Shown piece by piece: positions 52,385 through 59,590 of a stretch of 64,000 nucleotides of DNA (the first letter of the stretch is position 1; every line of letters starts with the position of its first letter). The DNA lies in assembly GCA_030041435.1 (NCBI GenBank), contig JASHNW010000056.1, forward strand, positions 1 through 64,000. The letters are read 5' to 3'. This stretch comes from Acidobacteriaceae bacterium. Lineage in GTDB: Bacteria; Acidobacteriota; Terriglobia; Terriglobales; Acidobacteriaceae. The notes under the pieces were generated by a model. The model saw nothing but the letters and a program-made list of their open reading frames with translations, was not told the DNA's origin and did not search any database. Both the position numbers and the translations under genes were made by a program.

Positions 52385-53566
52385 ATGTCTATGGATACGA
52401 TTCCGTTCTTGCCGCAGGACAGCCTGGAGCAGCAGGTGGCGCGTCTACAGGCGCTGCTGGAGGCGGCGCGCCAGGTGCACTCGACGATCCGGACGCATGA
52501 GGTGCTGGAGCAGACGGCAAGAATCATGGTGCGCGAACTGGAAATGCGGGGCGCTCTGTTTCTGGCGCCGGGAAGCGGCGCGCCATTGGTGAGCTATGGC
52601 GAGATTCCGACGGCCCCCTACCAGGGGTGCGGGCGCTTTCCGCTGTTTTCGCGGGAGAACAACCATCTGCTGGCGGAACTGGTGGTGACGGCGCCAGAGG
52701 GTGGGGAGTTCTCGCTGTACGAACAGGATTTCATAGAGGGGCTGGTGCTGCAGGCGGCAGTGGCGCTGGAGAACGCAACACTGCACGAGCGGGATATGGA
52801 ATGGGCGCGAGTGCAGCAGGATCTGGATGCGGCGCGATTGCTGCAACGGTCGCTGCTGCCCAAGGCAATGCCGGAGATTCCGGGGTTCTCGATCGCGGCC
52901 CGGTCGACGACGTGCTACGAGGTGGGCGGGGATTATCTGGACTCGATTCCGCAACGCGACGGGTCGCACCTGATGGTGGTGGCGGACGTGGCGGGCAAGG
53001 GACTGGCGTCGGCGATTGTGGCCACGAGTTTCCGCGCGGCGCTGCGTTCGCTGGCCGGCCATGCGGTGGCACTGGAAGATCTGGCGGCGCGCCTGGGACA
53101 GCAGCACTGGGATGAGGGCGCCGAGGCGCAGAGGCGGTACATGACGGCACTGTTCCTGCGGCTGGAGCCGGCGACGGCGGAGATCGAGGTCGTGAATGCG
53201 GGTCACAATCCCGCGGCGGTGCTGCTGCCGGATGGAACGTTGAAGACGATCGAGGCGTCGGGAACGCCGCTGGGGATGCTGCCCGGCATGGAGTATGCGG
53301 CGGAGCGGTTCCCGTTTCCCCGGGGATCGCGAATGCTGCTGTATACAGATGGACTGACGGAAGTTTTCCGCGGCAACGAGGAGTTCGGGGAAGAGCGTCT
53401 GGTTGCCCTGTTCCGCGAGACGCCTTTGCCTGAGGCCGAGAAGATCCTGGATTTGCTGTGGGAGACGCTCGGAAGCTTTTCGCAGCACACACCACAGACC
53501 GATGACATGACCGCGCTGGCGATCTGCCATCTCAATTCCTCGGCGCAGGAGAGCAAACCTTCATGA
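52385..53566 (+). CDS. GAF-SpoIIE phosphatase (RsbU/RsbP-like)
   Basis: The 393-residue cytoplasmic protein has a GAF-like domain (about 10-135, LEQQVARLQALLEAARQVHS and following), a coiled linker, and a PP2C-type SpoIIE domain from about 165: AARSTTCYEVGGDY, DVAGKGLASAI, NAGHNPAAVLL, DGLTE and the final metal-site QTDDMTAL. It would dephosphorylate a STAS antagonist and so release a sigma factor or other partner. It heads a three-gene operon; its stop overlaps the kinase start by four bases (ATGA). ATG 52385 or 52391 is possible. Confidence 0.92.
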   Translation: MSMDTIPFLPQDSLEQQVARLQALLEAARQVHSTIRTHEVLEQTARIMVRELEMRGALFLAPGSGAPLVSYGEIPTAPYQGCGRFPLFSRENNHLLAELVVTAPEGGEFSLYEQDFIEGLVLQAAVALENATLHERDMEWARVQQDLDAARLLQRSLLPKAMPEIPGFSIAARSTTCYEVGGDYLDSIPQRDGSHLMVVADVAGKGLASAIVATSFRAALRSLAGHAVALEDLAARLGQQHWDEGAEAQRRYMTALFLRLEPATAEIEVVNAGHNPAAVLLPDGTLKTIEASGTPLGMLPGMEYAAERFPFPRGSRMLLYTDGLTEVFRGNEEFGEERLVALFRETPLPEAEKILDLLWETLGSFSQHTPQTDDMTALAICHLNSSAQESKPS

Positions 53567-54000
53567 GGAAAGGAAGCTCGGTACAAGTACGTCTTCCTTC
53601 GGAACTCGGGTTCGAAAAGGTGGCCATGAGCACGGCAGCGAGCGTGGCCGGGCTGATGGGCTTCAGCCAGGACCGGATCGAAGACCTGAAAACGGCCGTG
53701 GGCGAGGCGTGTATCAACGCGATCGAGCATGGGAATCAGCTGAACAGCGGCCTGAGCGTGGGTGTGGTGCTCTCGACCAGCGACGATGAACTGGAAGTGA
53801 AGGTCATCGACGACGGAGCGGGCGTACGGGCCACGCCGCATGCGCCGAACATCGATCGCAAGATGCACGGAGAAGAAGATCCGAGGGGCATGGGCATGTT
53901 TCTCATCCAGAACCTCGTGGACGAAGCCGAGTGGCACCAGGGACCGCCGGGCAAGAGCTTCGTACGACTCGTCATTCGGCTCGACAAGGAGAATCAGTGA
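53563..54000 (+). CDS. RsbW-like serine kinase / anti-sigma factor
   Basis: The 145-residue protein is a stand-alone HATPase of the RsbW/SpoIIAB group. The N-box is VGEACINAIEHGN (about residue 47), G1 is IDDGAGVR and G2 is GMGMFLIQN. Such proteins phosphorylate STAS antagonists and bind a target, usually a sigma factor. It overlaps the phosphatase stop and its own TGA shares a base with the next ATG, so the three proteins should be made together. The sigma factor is not in the window. Confidence 0.92.
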   Translation: MRKGSSVQVRLPSELGFEKVAMSTAASVAGLMGFSQDRIEDLKTAVGEACINAIEHGNQLNSGLSVGVVLSTSDDELEVKVIDDGAGVRATPHAPNIDRKMHGEEDPRGMGMFLIQNLVDEAEWHQGPPGKSFVRLVIRLDKENQ

Positions 54001-54359
54001 TGCAGGTTCCTACCAAAGTGAGCGAACGCACAGCAGCGGGCGCCTCGGGCGGCTCGGTGACGATTCTTTCGTTCGCGGGAGACATCTCGTCGGCATCGAA
54101 GGATGCGATTCTGGGCGCGTATCACGGGCTCAATGGCGCAGTTTCGAAGGTCCTGCTGGACTTTACCGGGGTGGACTACATTAATTCGTCGGGAATCGCC
54201 ATCATTATTCAGATGCTGCTGGAAGCCGGCAAAGCGGGGACGCAGAGCATTGGAATTTTCGGGCTGAGCTCGCATTTCCAGAAGGTCTTCACTATGGTGG
54301 GGATCAACAAATACGCGGCTCTGCACAAAGACGAAGCAGCGGCGCTGGCGGCTGCGTGA
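54000..54359 (+). CDS. STAS-domain anti-sigma factor antagonist (RsbV-like)
   Basis: The 119-residue STAS protein has the fold signatures VTILSFAGDISSA and the phosphorylation loop YINSSGIAII, in which a Ser is phosphorylated in this family. Unphosphorylated, it would displace the kinase's partner. ATG 54000 overlaps the kinase stop by one base (TGATG). Ten bases after its stop the convergent STAS-receiver gene ends. Confidence 0.9.
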   Translation: MQVPTKVSERTAAGASGGSVTILSFAGDISSASKDAILGAYHGLNGAVSKVLLDFTGVDYINSSGIAIIIQMLLEAGKAGTQSIGIFGLSSHFQKVFTMVGINKYAALHKDEAAALAAA

Positions 54360-54369
54360 AGGGTGGGAA

Positions 54370-55053
54370 TCAGGCAGTGGGAGTGCCGGCCTGAAACATC
54401 TCAATCAGGACTTCGGCGCTGCGCAGCGCATCGAAGGAACGGAACTCCGGAGTGAGTTCGAGGATGGAGGCCTGCGGCGCCCATTTCTTGAGCGTGGTCC
54501 GGGCCGATTCCTGCCAGAAGCCAGGACCCAGCAGGATGAAATCCGCCGGGCAGCATTTGAGAAGAAGGCGGGCTTCGTGGACCAAGCTCGCCATTCTTAC
54601 CTCATACCCACGCTGGGAGAGGACGGCGCGGATGAAGACGCCGAAATCGGGCGAGCGGTCGATCACGATCACGTTGTGGGGGGCGCGATCGGAAGCTGCC
54701 TCGCGCGCTTCGGCGGCAAATGAGCCCGCGGCCTCTTCTTCCGAGGGGAACGACTTCAGGACGGTGGTGAGCCGCGTCATGCGCAGCAGTTCCTGAAGAG
54801 AGGGCTGGGGCGCGGCGAGGCGAAGATCGCCGCCGCGGCGGCGTAGCTTGCTCATGCAGCGGACCAGCAGACCGACACCGCTGCTGTCGAGGCGCGTCAC
54901 TCCATTTACGGTGAGCACAAAGTGGCAGAATTCGCGGGAAGCCGTCTCGATGCGTGCCTGGAGGGTCTGGGTTTCCTCGCCGAGGACGATCTCACCCTCG
55001 CATTCGAGGATGAAAACGTCGTCGCGGATACGGGAGCTGAGGGTCAGGGGCAC
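54370..55053 (-). CDS. STAS domain fused to a receiver-like domain without phospho-acceptor (copy 1)
   Basis: The 227-residue protein has a STAS domain (1-105; phosphorylation loop RLDSSGVGLLV intact) joined to a receiver-like beta-alpha domain from about 125. The receiver start NVIVIDRSPDFG keeps acidic residues, but the strand that should end in the phospho-acceptor Asp reads FILLGPG and no clear later Lys is seen. It is therefore a pseudo-receiver. A paralogue with the same layout lies upstream at 55157-55858. The pair faces the partner-switch operon and probably takes part in it. Confidence 0.82.
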   Translation of the reverse strand: MPLTLSSRIRDDVFILECEGEIVLGEETQTLQARIETASREFCHFVLTVNGVTRLDSSGVGLLVRCMSKLRRRGGDLRLAAPQPSLQELLRMTRLTTVLKSFPSEEEAAGSFAAEAREAASDRAPHNVIVIDRSPDFGVFIRAVLSQRGYEVRMASLVHEARLLLKCCPADFILLGPGFWQESARTTLKKWAPQASILELTPEFRSFDALRSAEVLIEMFQAGTPTA

Positions 55054-55094
55054 GGAATTCTCGCATCACGGGGTTGCCGGACAGGCCACGTTCT

Positions 55095-55119
55095 CTCAAA
55101 AAGTAACACAGGCAGGATA
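55095..55119 (-). promoter_or_regulatory. Element shared upstream of both STAS-receiver genes (copy 1)
   Basis: The 25 bases here match 55911-55935 at 21 of 25 positions. The core on the minus strand reads TATCCTGCCTGTG followed by T-T-A-C-T5. It lies 42 bases before the start codon; a promoter or operator is likely. Confidence 0.45.
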
Positions 55120-55156
55120 GCGGGCAGACATTGCGAAGGGCGGAGACAGGCGGGAA

Positions 55157-55858
55157 TCAGGCCGGCGTGCTGCCGGCCTGGAACATTTCGAGCAGAATCT
55201 CAGCGGCGCGCTGGGCGTCGAAGGTGCGGAACTGGGGATCCAGTTCAAGCGCCTGGGCGTGGGGCGCCACGCTGCGCAGGGAAGCAAGCGCGGCGGCGGG
55301 AGAGGATTGCGGGACTCCGGTTCCAGGGCCGAGCAGGATGTAATCCACGGGCTGAAACTGCAGCAGGGTGCGGGCGTCGCGGATGAGGCTGGCGGAGTTG
55401 ACCTCGAATCCATGCTGCGTAAGAACGGCACGGATGAAGGCGCCAAGGTCGGGGGAGCGATCGATGACGAGCACGCGGCGCCGCGGGCGGCCGTCCGCCG
55501 GCTGGCAGGGCGCCTGGCTGAGAAACGAGCGTGTCGTCTCGTCTTCTGTGGGATAGGTGCGCAGCAGCGTCTCGAGCCGGGTCATGTGCAGGAGTTCCTG
55601 GAAGTGCTTCGGAGGGGCGGCCAGACGCAGATCGCCGCCGCGTTTACGGAGTGTGCTCATGCAGCGGACCAGCAGCCCCAGGCCGACGCTGTCGATACGA
55701 TTCACATCTTCGACGGCGATCACGATGCGACAGAACTCACGCGCGATGAGTTCGAGGAGCGATTCGAGAGATTTCGTTTCCGGGCCGAGGGTGATCTGGC
55801 CGTGGCAGTGGACGATGCAGACGTTGCCGCAGATACGGGAGTCGAGATGCAGGGGCAT
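55157..55858 (-). CDS. STAS domain fused to a receiver-like domain without phospho-acceptor (copy 2)
   Basis: The 233-residue paralogue of the downstream gene has the same two-domain layout. Its receiver part starts RVLVIDRSPDLGAFIRAVL and again lacks the acceptor Asp (YILLGPGTG). The STAS phosphorylation loop reads RIDSVGLGLLV, so one Ser of the usual D-S-S-G is Val. Both copies end in MFQAG plus a short tail. The two genes arose by tandem duplication and have since diverged. A different partner or phosphorylation behaviour for each copy is inference. Confidence 0.82.
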   Translation of the reverse strand: MPLHLDSRICGNVCIVHCHGQITLGPETKSLESLLELIAREFCRIVIAVEDVNRIDSVGLGLLVRCMSTLRKRGGDLRLAAPPKHFQELLHMTRLETLLRTYPTEDETTRSFLSQAPCQPADGRPRRRVLVIDRSPDLGAFIRAVLTQHGFEVNSASLIRDARTLLQFQPVDYILLGPGTGVPQSSPAAALASLRSVAPHAQALELDPQFRTFDAQRAAEILLEMFQAGSTPA

Positions 55859-55910
55859 GCGTTCCTCGTTTCACGGGAACTGCCGGGGACCCGGAGCGGG
55901 GGGCGATTGC

Positions 55911-55935
55911 CTGAAAAGGTATCACAGGCGGGATA
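55911..55935 (-). promoter_or_regulatory. Element shared upstream of both STAS-receiver genes (copy 2)
   Basis: It matches 55095-55119 at 21 of 25 positions, with core TATCCCGCCTGTG on the minus strand, 53 bases before the start codon of copy 2. Confidence 0.45.
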
Positions 55936-56177
55936 CGGCGCACAGCAGCACATCCGCATGGCGCGCCGGGAGATGGTTGACCTGAAACGGAGGGTGGCGC
56001 GGAACACGAGATCGCAAGGGCGAAAGTACTGTTGCCCGCCCCGAAATGCGGTCTGTACACTGGGTTTCCCCATCCCAGAGCACCGGCGGCTGTAATTTGC
56101 AGCGAGAGTCAGTGGACGATTCGCGGAGGGTCCCGGGCTGTGAGCGCACATCTGCGAGTGGGCATGGCGTACGGAGG

Positions 56178-56300
56178 GCTTAGAGCAGTTTTGGAATACA
56201 CGCAGACTTTTTGAGGCTGGTACAGGGTGACTTTTTCCTGATTAAAAAGCCACTTGAGCCTGTGCCTTCGGTCTACACCAATTCCGAAACTGCTATAGGC
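56178..56300. repeat. Nested palindromic element (MITE-like or structured RNA)
   Basis: AGCAGTTTTGGAAT (56184-56197) pairs with ATTCCGAAACTGCT (56281-56294) through 14 pairs including one G-T. The stem extends outward past one mismatch to 56178/56300. Inside is a second stem, GGTACAGG (56219-56226) with CCTGTGCC (56259-56266), closing over CTTTTT/AAAAAG (56231-56236, 56244-56249). The ends look like terminal inverted repeats of a 123-base element; a folded 5' leader is the alternative. Confidence 0.6.
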
Positions 56301-56337
56301 ACCCGCGGCGCGGTCCAGCCAGAATGAGGGAGAAACG

Positions 56338-58305
56338 ATGAGGGTGCAGCGAAAGGGGCTGAAGCTGGGCGGGCTCGCGTGCCTCCTGCGCAGGCGCGCG
56401 TGGCCTTGTCTGTTGCCCTTCCTCTTCCTCTTTATACCGCCGCTCCTGGCGCAGACCGTGGACCTGACCGGCTGGCACAGCGGTGCGGTGGAGCTGACCA
56501 GCGGCTGGGTAACACAAGCGGGAGATGATCCGGGGTGGGCCTCCTCGGACTTCAACGACAGCGCATGGAAGCCCGTGGAATTGGACGATATGGGGGGTGC
56601 GCAGCCGGGCTGGCGGTGGTTCCGGGTGCACGTGAAGCTGGGAGACGACCATCCGTATGTGCACCTGCTGATCGTGGGTGGCGGCGGCACCTACGAGCTG
56701 CATGTGAACGGGCAGAGGATGGACGGGCCGAAGCTGCTGCCGGAGCTTGGAGTCTCTCGGCCGACGGAGCGAGTGGTCTGGATCGGCGAAGGCGACACGG
56801 ACCTGGAACTGGCGCTGCGGACGCATGCGCCGGTGAGCTACACGGGCTGGCATCTGCCGCTGTTTCTGGATTTCGAGCTGGGAACGCCGGATGCCATCGA
56901 TACCGCGCGGGCCGCGGCGCAGAGCCAGCGCATGTATGCGGCGCTTCCGTCCATTGCCATCAACCTGCTGGTGATCCTGGCGGGCATCTGTGCCTTCGCG
57001 CTGTACCGCAGCCAGAGCACGCATAAGGAATACCGGTGGCTGGGGTTCTACCTGCTGCTGCTGGGGCTTTCCAATCTGCTCTTGTTCTCCGCAACGGACG
57101 GCATTTTGCCGCTCGACTGCAACGACTTGCTGGGCGACCCGCTGATCTATTTCTTCACGATCATGCAGATCGAGTTCACGTTCAGCTTCGTGGGCCAACG
57201 CGTGGGGCGCGTGTGGCGCGCATACGAAGGGCTGCTGGTAGCGATGCTCATCCCCTGCGGCCTGACGGCCGTCGGCATGCTTTCCGCCAGCGTGTACACC
57301 CTGGTGGAAGCCGCAGCGATTTTGCCGGCGGCTCTTCTGCTGCCGGTTCTGCTCACGATTTGGTACCGGCGCGGCAATCGCGAGGCGGGATGGCTGATCG
57401 TGCCCAGTCTCCTGCCCGCCGCTGCCACGGCCATCTTCGACCTGGGCACTACCTCGATTTTTGCCGGCTGGGGGCGGCTGGATTTTCTGGCCAATCCCAT
57501 ACCTGTGGGGCCCATCTCCCTGCAGTTGAGCGATGCCGGGGATTTTCTGTTCGTGCTGGCGATCGGGGTGGTGATGTTCTTCCGCTTTACGCGGGTCAGC
57601 CGCGAGCAGGCACGCTCCGCGGCGGAGCTGGACGCGGCGCGGGAGATGCAGCGGCGCATGGTCCCGGTGCAGCTGCCCGAAGTAGCCGGCTATGCCATCG
57701 AAGCCGCCTATTTTCCCGCCGCGGAAGTGGGTGGCGATTTCTATCAGGTGCTGGGACAGCGCGACGGATCGACCGTCGTGGTGGTAGGCGACGTGAGCGG
57801 CAAAGGGCTGCAGGCCGCCATGACCGGAACGCTGGCGCTGGGCGCGCTGCGCACCCTTGCCGCAGAGGACCTGGGGCCGGCACAGTTGCTGGCCCGGCTG
57901 AACGAGCAGATCGTGTCGACGCAGGAAACCGGGTTCATCACCTGCCTGTGCGTCAGGATCGCGCCAGATGGACGTGTGACCGCCGCCAATGCCGGACACC
58001 TTGTTCCCTACCGCAACGGCGAGGAGATCGAACTGGAGTCGGGCCTGCCGCTGGGCGTTTCGGCGGCGGCACAGTACGGCGAAGGGATGCTCGTGCTCGC
58101 GCCGGGCGATATGCTCACGCTGCTCTCCGACGGGGTGGTCGAGGCGATGACGCCCGGCGGCGAGCTGTTCGGTTTTGCGCGGACCCAGCAGATCAGCCGG
58201 CGGCGCGCACTGGAGATTGCCGATGCGGCCCGCCATTTCGGTCAGCGGGACGACATTACCGTGCTCACACTTACTCTGACGGGCATGGGAGTGGTGCATG
58301 CGTAA
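56338..58305 (+). CDS. Membrane SpoIIE phosphatase with jelly-roll sensor and seven membrane segments
   Basis: The 655-residue protein has a signal peptide or first helix (PFLFLFIPPLLAQ), then a periplasmic domain at about 45-190 that looks like the galactose-binding jelly roll of GH2 and 7TMR sensors: FNDSAWKPVELDD, GWRWFRVHVKLG and YELHVNGQRMDG. Seven hydrophobic helices follow between about 200 and 420. The C-terminal PP2C/SpoIIE domain has REMQRRMVPVQLP, AAEVGGDFYQ, DVSGKGLQAAM, NAGHLVPYR and GQRDDITVL. It should signal by dephosphorylating a STAS protein when an extracellular ligand binds. GGGAG lies five bases before ATG 56338. The stop overlaps the GH8 start by eight bases. Confidence 0.9.
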   Translation: MRVQRKGLKLGGLACLLRRRAWPCLLPFLFLFIPPLLAQTVDLTGWHSGAVELTSGWVTQAGDDPGWASSDFNDSAWKPVELDDMGGAQPGWRWFRVHVKLGDDHPYVHLLIVGGGGTYELHVNGQRMDGPKLLPELGVSRPTERVVWIGEGDTDLELALRTHAPVSYTGWHLPLFLDFELGTPDAIDTARAAAQSQRMYAALPSIAINLLVILAGICAFALYRSQSTHKEYRWLGFYLLLLGLSNLLLFSATDGILPLDCNDLLGDPLIYFFTIMQIEFTFSFVGQRVGRVWRAYEGLLVAMLIPCGLTAVGMLSASVYTLVEAAAILPAALLLPVLLTIWYRRGNREAGWLIVPSLLPAAATAIFDLGTTSIFAGWGRLDFLANPIPVGPISLQLSDAGDFLFVLAIGVVMFFRFTRVSREQARSAAELDAAREMQRRMVPVQLPEVAGYAIEAAYFPAAEVGGDFYQVLGQRDGSTVVVVGDVSGKGLQAAMTGTLALGALRTLAAEDLGPAQLLARLNEQIVSTQETGFITCLCVRIAPDGRVTAANAGHLVPYRNGEEIELESGLPLGVSAAAQYGEGMLVLAPGDMLTLLSDGVVEAMTPGGELFGFARTQQISRRRALEIADAARHFGQRDDITVLTLTLTGMGVVHA

Positions 58306-59590
58306 GGCGGTTTATCTGCTGGTTGTGCTTCTCGGTGGGCTGAGCATAGGGCGGGCGCAAACCGTTCTCGACGATGGCAGCGGCGCCTGGGCGACGGGTA
58401 AGTATCGCGACCTTTTCAAAGAAGACGGGCATTCCGAGAAGCAAATCCGCGCGAAGATCGATGCGGCGTACCAGCAGCTCTTCCACGGCGATCCGCAGAC
58501 GCAGGCAGTGGCGTTTTGGGCGGGGTCGAACGCGAATGGCCCGCTGATGTATCTGACCGACTGGGCCAATCACGACGTGCGCACGGAAGGCATGTCGTAC
58601 GGGATGATCATTTCCGTCGAGTTGAATCACCGGAAGGAATTCGACGCGCTGTGGAACTGGGCCATGACGTACATGTACATCGGCGACCCGAAAGCGCCGA
58701 GTTACGATTACTTCGCGTGGTCGTGCAAGACGAGCGGCACGCACAATTCGGAGGGTGCGGCGCCGGATGGCGAGTCGTATTTTGCGATGGCCCTGCTGTT
58801 TGCCGCGAACCGCTGGCCCGGCGGCGACGGCATCTACGATTACCACGCTGAGGCGGAGAGGCTGCTGACGGCGATGGTGCATCGCGAGGCGATCACCGCG
58901 CCGGGAAAGTATGGGCCGCACGGAGTGGGACCGGAGATGCATCAGGATCCACCGATGATCCTGTTTGTGCCGGAGATCATGCTGCATCCATTTACGGACC
59001 CCTCGTATCATCTGCCTGGGTTTTATGAACTGTGGGCGCGCTGGGGGCCTGCGGAAGACCGCGACTTCTGGGAGCGGGCCGCGGAGGCCAGCCGGGCGTT
59101 CTTCCCCAGGGCGGCGAATGCTGATACCGGCCTTTCTCCGGACTACGCGAACTTCGACGGCACTCCGGTCATTAGTCGCTTCTTGCAATCAAACAAGTTC
59201 GGCTACGATGCGTGGCGCGTGGAGAGTAACTGGTCAGTCGACTGGTCGTGGTGGCGCAAAGCACCGGCGGAGCAAACGCTGAGCGATCGCATTCAGAGGT
59301 TTTTCACGTCGCAGGGGATCGATTCGTACGGGTCCGTCTATACGCTGGACGGCAAACCGCTGGGCTCGACGCCGGGACTGACAAACGAAGGCCATCCCGA
59401 GGGCCTGGTGGGGACGAATGCAGTGGCTGGACTGGCGGCGACGGATCGGGTGCGGGCGCGGTTGTTTACGGAGGCGCTGTGGAACACGCCGATTCCTTCA
59501 GGACAGAGCCGCTACTATGACGGCATGCTGTACCTGATGAGCCTGATGCATGCGGGCGGAGAGTTTCGCATCATTGGGCCGAAGCGGTGA
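58298..59590 (+). CDS. GH8 glycoside hydrolase, reducing-end xylose-releasing exo-oligoxylanase type
   Basis: The 430-residue enzyme has a signal peptide (YLLVVLLGGLSIGRAQT) and the GH8 alpha/alpha barrel. HDVRTEGMSYGMI carries the catalytic acid Glu97 and matches the Rex/endoxylanase subgroup, as do APDGESYFAMALLFAANRW and NGPLMYLTDWA. The subgroup hydrolyses xylo-oligosaccharides or xylan. Chitosanase and cellulase members of GH8 differ in these segments. It overlaps the phosphatase gene by eight bases, so the two are co-expressed; this links the phosphatase sensor to plant-polysaccharide use by inference. Confidence 0.9.
   Translation: MRKAVYLLVVLLGGLSIGRAQTVLDDGSGAWATGKYRDLFKEDGHSEKQIRAKIDAAYQQLFHGDPQTQAVAFWAGSNANGPLMYLTDWANHDVRTEGMSYGMIISVELNHRKEFDALWNWAMTYMYIGDPKAPSYDYFAWSCKTSGTHNSEGAAPDGESYFAMALLFAANRWPGGDGIYDYHAEAERLLTAMVHREAITAPGKYGPHGVGPEMHQDPPMILFVPEIMLHPFTDPSYHLPGFYELWARWGPAEDRDFWERAAEASRAFFPRAANADTGLSPDYANFDGTPVISRFLQSNKFGYDAWRVESNWSVDWSWWRKAPAEQTLSDRIQRFFTSQGIDSYGSVYTLDGKPLGSTPGLTNEGHPEGLVGTNAVAGLAATDRVRARLFTEALWNTPIPSGQSRYYDGMLYLMSLMHAGGEFRIIGPKR

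Follow-up and report, generated by a model that had tools for sequence, protein, structure and literature searches.

In partner switches of the RsbU/RsbV/RsbW kind a phosphatase dephosphorylates RsbV, which then takes RsbW away from its target. The locus described here lies at positions 52385-59590 of a 64,000-nucleotide stretch of DNA from an Acidobacteriaceae bacterium (contig JASHNW010000056.1 of assembly GCA_030041435.1; this whole stretch is called the window below) and contains a switch of these families together with a phosphatase that has the build of a seven-helix receptor. It resembles RsbU-RsbV-RsbW and SpoIIE-SpoIIAA-SpoIIAB of Bacillus in its three protein families, in the retained kinase, STAS-serine and PP2C motifs and in the tight operon; it differs from them in that no SigB/F/G-type sigma factor of this genome exceeds the cut-off of the model used (TIGR02980), that the phosphatases include seven-helix receptors, and that RsbV proteins of the window type have an invariant NSSG motif where SpoIIAA has DSSG. 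The RsbU/RsbW/RsbV system of Chlamydia, a throttle of the primary sigma factor in which the main sigma factor is the target of RsbW (PMC4552016, in the part available), likewise has a phosphatase, a kinase and two antagonists, but the receptors found here carry GH2-type jelly-rolls and seven helices and stand in arrays. The 7TMR-DISM receptors share with our protein a jelly-roll-type ectodomain, seven helices and a cytoplasmic signalling domain (here read from a structure model); in contrast to them, the ectodomain family of the window protein matches GH2/beta-galactosidase models, its output domain is SpoIIE, and it misses the 7TMR-DISM_7TM model, which 3 of the 17 proteins scanned do match (best 9.8e-7). 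SiaA of Pseudomonas is a membrane phosphatase. Both SiaA and the PA3346/PA3347 switch of Pseudomonas have the SpoIIE/PP2C fold and a STAS partner (for PA3346/PA3347 according to the accessible portion of PMC8256260), but sensors and gene order are different here. Finally, Rex8A and the GH8 xylanases are matched over nearly the whole length of the GH8 protein of the locus, with the difference that the window gene overlaps the gene of a receptor phosphatase.

Expansions of SpoIIE are already known in Streptomyces and Sorangium (PMC2887360, as far as its available part tells). Publications on this switch of the Acidobacteria or on tandem seven-helix SpoIIE genes were not found in a search that left most subscription journals outside. 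The parts of the locus are known; the seven-helix receptor phosphatases of GH2 type, their arrays and the junction joining their genes are, as far as found, unpublished.

It was clearly observed that SpoIIE > RsbW > RsbV is a widespread partner switch of the Acidobacteriaceae. The comparison covered 100 genomes of the family (thresholds E<=1e-15 for RsbW and E<=1e-8 for RsbV) and a scan of named genomes, which gave 305 RsbW relatives and from which the best 80 of the 305 loci were read; flanks were fetched around the switch loci, contig ends shortening many of these flanks. RsbW and RsbV co-occur in the same 11 of the 100 family genomes, always adjacent and in the order SpoIIE > RsbW > RsbV, and the three-gene core is present in all 80 named loci, including L055 of Terriglobus albidus and L048 of Granulicella aggregans, both culturable relatives; in several loci the SpoIIE gene runs off the contig, and in L114 and L122 it appears as two open reading frames. 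In the window the core consists, on the plus strand, of a soluble SpoIIE/RsbU-type PP2C phosphatase (393 amino acids, 52385-53566; PF07228, 144.9 bits), an RsbW-type serine kinase/switch protein (145 amino acids, 53563-54000; HATPase_c_2, 78 bits), the gene of which overlaps the SpoIIE gene by 4 nt, and an RsbV-type STAS antagonist (119 amino acids, 54000-54359; STAS, 34.9 bits), which overlaps rsbW by 1 nt (TGATG). RsbW matches the PDB structures of RsbW (6m36, E 4e-13) and SpoIIAB, and RsbV those of SpoIIAA (1th8) and TM1442. Alignment showed that the ATP-binding motif residues of RsbW are invariant in 11 orthologues and that NSSG does not vary among the 11 aligned RsbV sequences, of which 9 are orthologues and 2 paralogues, the kinase motifs and the STAS serine being thereby retained in the window switch. 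Ser63 within NSSG is the candidate phospho-serine of RsbV. The partner switch proposed by an earlier, sequence-only reading of the locus is supported by its intact motifs.

The recurrent element near this switch is a family of receptor phosphatases, rather than the GH8 gene or the pair of STAS-receiver genes that the window locus also contains. In 9 of the 11 family genomes (that of the window included) and in 16 of the 80 named loci, receptor-type SpoIIE genes lie within the sequence that flanks the switch, directly adjacent to it in 14 of these 16. They were called by BLAST match and length with one receptor as bait; the 16 comprise 15 labelled cases and L065, a 692-residue protein that matches soluble SpoIIE best yet aligns with the receptors. 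The receptor of the window (655 amino acids, 56338-58305, plus strand; PF07228, 132 bits) has a signal peptide recognised by eye, a jelly-roll ectodomain at about residues 40-182, seven helices at 184-441 and a SpoIIE PP2C domain at about 450-650. Its AlphaFold model contains an N-terminal beta-sandwich and seven long helices (mean predicted confidence, pLDDT, 76, with low values ahead of residue 40 and in a few loops), and a presumably extracellular jelly-roll, seven helices and a presumably cytoplasmic signalling domain are all present in the predicted structure. In a whole-model search the PP2C fold matched the RsbU domain of Rv1364c (Z 25.5), SiaA (23.6) and RssB (23.0), the matches shown covering the phosphatase only. 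The motifs GGD, DVSGKG and S/TDG occur in the window receptor and in all 17 array genes described below. A profile of 21 ectodomains matches jelly-rolls of GH2/beta-galactosidases and of sialate esterases in the PDB (E 2e-16 to 2e-9 for the top five), and the window ectodomain alone gives a weak match to the N-domain of a rhamnosidase (E 0.009); sequence comparison thus supports its placement, as a family, among the GH2 sugar-binding jelly-rolls. The sequence-only reading had described a seven-helix SpoIIE protein with a jelly-roll, its gene overlapping a GH8 gene, and this description was confirmed by the model, the family profile and the 8-nt overlap.

The same genome holds ten further receptor-type phosphatase genes, arranged head to tail on contig C133 (76566-94958, that is L001 3567-19901 and L002 1-2690) behind an RsbV paralogue at about 95231-95590. 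A seven-gene array, led by an RsbV paralogue of its own, exists in the sister species G033 (C62:15912-29345, that is L029 9913-19901 and L141 1-3445). These two paralogues are 72% (own genome) and 75% (G033) identical to the window RsbV, and no close RsbW was found on either array contig (C133 and C62 of G033). At all 15 array junctions, 9 in the own array and 6 in G033, an in-frame start codon (ATG in 13, GTG in 2) lies exactly 8 nt inside the preceding gene; the octamer formed is RTGCRTAR in 14 junctions and ATGCCTAA in one. The window receptor ends in the same manner: its stop is joined to the GH8 start by an 8-nt overlap of this common spacing (58298-58305, plus strand), the sequence of which, ATGCGTAA, is identical to that of 8 of the 15 array junctions. 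Furthermore, a C-terminal HA is shared by 8 of the 10 own array proteins, 5 of the 7 in G033 and the window receptor, and by none of the 16 non-array receptors aligned. The first two genes of the own array and the first of G033 are short (470-482 amino acids) and, judged by length, miss the jelly-roll.

The two halves of these proteins probably have different histories. Phosphatase halves are 41-77% identical to each other and sensor halves 11-43%, save three pairs at 53-62%. The sensor tree groups the window receptor with gene 9 of the own array and gene 1 of G033 (100/99), whereas in the phosphatase tree the window receptor and own gene 9 stay together (96/92) and G033 gene 1 is placed elsewhere. 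With the approximately unbiased (AU) test, the phosphatase data rejected the trio of the sensor tree (p 0.0015), and the sensor data rejected the phosphatase-type group (p 0.0006), both p values being optimistic since the identities were already known when the groups were chosen. The conflict of the trees points to a probable exchange of sensor and phosphatase halves between receptors, and the window receptor is, by its sequence, an array-type gene.

On these grounds we consider it rather probable that the Acidobacteriaceae possess a partner switch of one kinase and many phosphatases, in which the array receptors feed the same RsbW. RsbW (53563-54000) would phosphorylate RsbV and, as long as RsbV is phosphorylated, would hold its own target; dephosphorylated RsbV would capture RsbW, and the target would be freed. 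The phosphate could be removed by two kinds of phosphatase, the soluble SpoIIE, which would answer a cue from within the cell, and the seven-helix receptor (56338-58305), which would answer a ligand bound outside the cell by the GH2-type jelly-roll. Since there is no close RsbW beside the array, the second, array-borne RsbV probably uses the RsbW of the window, and since the array sensors diverge, the genome would have a repertoire of inputs to one switch. Genes, domains, their conservation, the arrays, their junctions and the conflict of the trees are direct observations; the phosphorylation cycle, the membrane signal and the sharing of RsbW are modelled on the known biochemistry of RsbU, RsbV and RsbW. 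As for GH8, the gene would have become attached, in this lineage, to one array-type receptor gene at its 3' end, and its product probably acts on xylo-oligosaccharides; that it makes or removes the receptor ligand is a guess. A wider proposal, which we offer tentatively and with somewhat less than even confidence, is a chemoreceptor-like repertoire working through phosphatases: one RsbW and two RsbV proteins (72% identical) would read out at least 11 receptor phosphatases, which would have arisen by tandem expansion behind a fixed 8-nt junction, diversification of the ectodomains and sensor exchange, and GH8 would be a ligand-producing enzyme captured at the same junction.

The GH8 protein (430 amino acids, 58298-59590, plus strand; PF01270, 87.7 bits) has its best PDB matches in 6g00 (E 4e-119), Rex8A (6srd, 4e-97) and xylanase Y (1wu4, 6e-87), covering nearly the whole protein, which by similarity makes it kin to the characterised Rex-type and xylan-active GH8 enzymes. 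It is probably co-translated with the receptor. GH8 homologues were found in 11 of the 100 family genomes, that of the window included, and no seven-helix receptor stands beside GH8 in the ten other loci, four of which are short or at contig ends, G079 having no upstream sequence. GH8 was seen in none of the 80 flanks of named switch loci, many of which stop early at the end of a contig. The sister species G033 carries GH8 on one contig and the switch on another, and in G097, a third genome of the genus, neither was found at the thresholds applied. The join of receptor and GH8 by an 8-nt overlap therefore occurs in this genome only, among the loci read, and GH8 looks like a local companion of the receptor, not a defining part of the system, by which the first reading is corrected. 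A derivation of the GH8 leader from an array gene was also considered and found no support (z 2.6 in the best of 17 comparisons); the octamer shared with the array junctions can be explained from the receptor 3' end alone.

Between the switch and the receptor, on the minus strand, lie two genes of STAS proteins with aspartate-less receiver-like halves: protein 1 (227 amino acids, 54370-55053; STAS, 60 bits), convergent with the RsbV gene, and protein 2 (233 amino acids, 55157-55858; STAS, 57.8 bits). They are 56% identical, and LLGPG occupies the place where the phospho-aspartate of the receiver is expected; Response_reg is below the cut-off in protein 2 (18 bits) and not listed in protein 1. 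The model of protein 2 is of moderate quality (pLDDT 71.5) and matches STAS structures and, more weakly, receivers. The two opposing STAS pseudo-receiver proteins of the sequence-only reading are thus present, with degenerate receiver halves. The pair stands beside the switch in this genome only, among the loci read; different STAS proteins, no more than 37% identical, occur in four of the 80 named loci, one of these proteins being a kinase-STAS fusion. Matches to the STAS-receiver proteins occur in 43 of the 100 family genomes, many through the STAS part alone, and full-length-like matches, counted by eye from their spans, coincide with the RsbW-positive set only in G000 and G064. Within 1.5 kb of 14 STAS-receiver loci (L127-L140) no common neighbour was found. 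Their membership in the system was rejected, since full-length homologues are mostly in genomes without this RsbW and have no common neighbours. As an observation apart, STAS proteins with an aspartate-less receiver form a family of their own in the Acidobacteriaceae.

The seven open reading frames, all at the positions given by the sequence-only reading, consequently form three blocks and are no single operon or conserved system: SpoIIE > RsbW > RsbV on the plus strand, the STAS-receiver pair on the minus strand, ending 10 bp from the RsbV gene, and receptor and GH8 again on the plus strand, preceded by about 480 bp of intergenic DNA. The opposed pair and this intergenic DNA are the reasons why the locus is not one operon; the coupled SpoIIE-RsbW-STAS operon of the sequence-only reading stood in its genes, overlaps and domains, but not in an extension to all seven genes, and its GAF label is weak. 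The N-terminal region of the soluble SpoIIE is sensor-like, GAF-like only by eye, and gave no match to GAF, while one of 12 relatives scanned matched GAF_2 (E 0.012). As for conservation of the six-gene arrangement in acidobacterial relatives, on which that reading had staked its proposal, the full arrangement was seen in this genome alone among the loci read. Upstream of the receptor gene lies a dispersed repeat of about 119 bp (56181-56298, plus strand) with 25 matches in the genome, this one included; of the others 23 are 86-96% identical over most of the length and one is a short partial match. No inverted repeats were detected in 55860-56340 at the settings used; by eye the ends of the repeat look inverted, and it is perhaps like a miniature inverted-repeat transposable element. 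The promoter scan remained at chance level and the terminator scan slightly above it. The whole genome has 24 SpoIIE, 8 STAS and 19 HATPase_c_2 matches, three of the last being strong and RsbW-type.

Several points weigh against the switch of one kinase and many phosphatases. No receptor was found in the flank of two of the 11 family genomes (G083, G044) and of 64 of the 80 named loci, with many flanks cut by contig ends and one bait used. The starts of the array genes were picked by script as the nearest to -8, and 12 of the 15 junctions have other in-frame starts, none of which recurs at one position throughout. Arrays are known from two species of one genus, other genomes not having been searched for them. 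That the receptors would act on the window RsbV is suggested by linkage; with their shorter phosphatase match (171 residues, against 190 in the soluble SpoIIE) they could prefer another STAS protein, and the other strong RsbW-like matches, on C82 and C52, could serve the second RsbV. Milder in weight are two loci in which partner-switch-type genes lie near GH8, taken here as coincidence: in G008 (L026 2993-3640) a STAS_2 open reading frame, not the window RsbV, adjoins the GH8 orthologue, and in G064 a SpoIIE protein of 394 amino acids, not the window receptor, is encoded about 2.4 kb from GH8.

The sequence-only reading had seen a dedicated xylan-sensing locus, whose jelly-roll binds xylan-type sugars, upon which the switch fires and genes for polysaccharide use, GH8 included, are turned on. 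The GH2 sugar-binding kind of the ectodomain family, the kinship of GH8 to xylan-active enzymes, the co-translation suggested by the 8-nt overlap, and a GH8 orthologue in G064 that adjoins a 1257-residue Oar-like protein of TonB-receptor type (named by eye) all speak for this. Jelly-rolls of the GH2 kind can, however, also be structural, the receptor-GH8 pair is confined to this genome (0 of 10 other GH8 loci, one cut upstream, and 0 of 80 switch flanks), and the same junction in the array receptors leads to another receptor, not to a glycosidase. With GH8 and the STAS-receiver pair beside the switch in this genome only, a conserved carbohydrate-sensing locus is rejected, and as the xylan ligand is suggested by the overlap of a pair found in one genome, the dedicated locus is highly improbable. 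Alternatively, two independent systems may lie side by side, the switch answering the soluble SpoIIE only and the receptor acting on another STAS protein, for instance the adjacent STAS-receiver proteins or the second RsbV. In accordance with this, the receptor-GH8 unit is preceded by about 480 bp with a dispersed repeat, the closest kin of the window receptor are array genes and not the switch-adjacent receptor of the sister species, the array has its own RsbV, and in PPM phosphatases of B. subtilis the choice of substrate is set by three variable docking loops (PMC11418112, in the part seen). We regard this arrangement as unlikely, if worth keeping in mind, because such receptors recur near the switch in 9 of the 11 family genomes, the full-length STAS-receiver homologues lie mostly in genomes without this RsbW and share no neighbour in 14 loci, and the two RsbV copies are 72% identical.

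The remaining alternatives concern the output. The best matches to TIGR02980 below its cut-off were a protein on C108, RpoD-like by size, and FliA (C4, in a flagellar cluster by eye). An output through this flagellar sigma factor, released directly or through FlgM, has a precedent in the PA3346/PA3347 switch (PMC8256260, in its accessible portion), and of the two sigma models searched FliA alone passes its cut-off here; FliA exceeds it in 10 of the 11 RsbW-positive and in 43 of the 89 RsbW-negative family genomes (Fisher p 0.009, kinship uncorrected), and was found in 39 of 50 named RsbW-positive genomes (50 of the 80 covered). In the other 11 of these 50, including L059, L067 and L068 with similar switch neighbourhoods, FliA was not found, the completeness of these genomes not being given, and FliA was rejected as an obligate output in spite of its enrichment. 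FlgM was likewise found, both here and in 9 of the 11 RsbW-positive family genomes at E<=0.001 (one below the family cut-off), by which a replacement of FlgM by RsbW was rejected; altogether the FliA output appears very doubtful. Improbable too, if to a lesser degree, is a switch for general stress by which the primary sigma factor, or some other stress target, is metered: it agrees with the lack of a SigB/F/G-type sigma factor over the cut-off, with the binding of the main sigma factor by RsbW in Chlamydia (PMC4552016, in the part available), and with two kinds of neighbours of the core, an HSP20 cluster (5 of the 80 named loci) and a cluster that includes a ClpB-type member (7 of the 80). 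These stress neighbours are, however, a minority, the commonest being an M24 peptidase cluster (30 of 80); in each of the three clusters one member was annotated. In L070, L084, L092, L115 and L116 an HSP20-cluster gene and then a ClpB-type-cluster gene follow downstream of the switch, which suggests a stress role in this group.

Additional genes of these families were noted elsewhere. In G064 (L030 8610-10752) the conserved switch is directly adjoined by a second one, a run of two RsbW-type and three STAS genes. In the genome of the window, contig C82 (L040 9573-10504) carries a second RsbW-STAS pair, 27-31% identical to the window genes and adjoining an apparent toxin-antitoxin pair of VapBC type (by eye).

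In the customary picture a partner switch comprises one or two phosphatases together with a sigma factor of Bacillus type. In the case described here the switch is retained by members of a Gram-negative family of the soil, the genome of the window lacks such a sigma factor over the cut-off, and the membrane phosphatases have been multiplied into arrays. The switch would also suit the question of what RsbW controls where SigB is missing, and the arrays offer a ready system for studying how a phosphatase whose sensor changes can retain its substrate, a question of docking (PMC11418112, as far as its available part goes).

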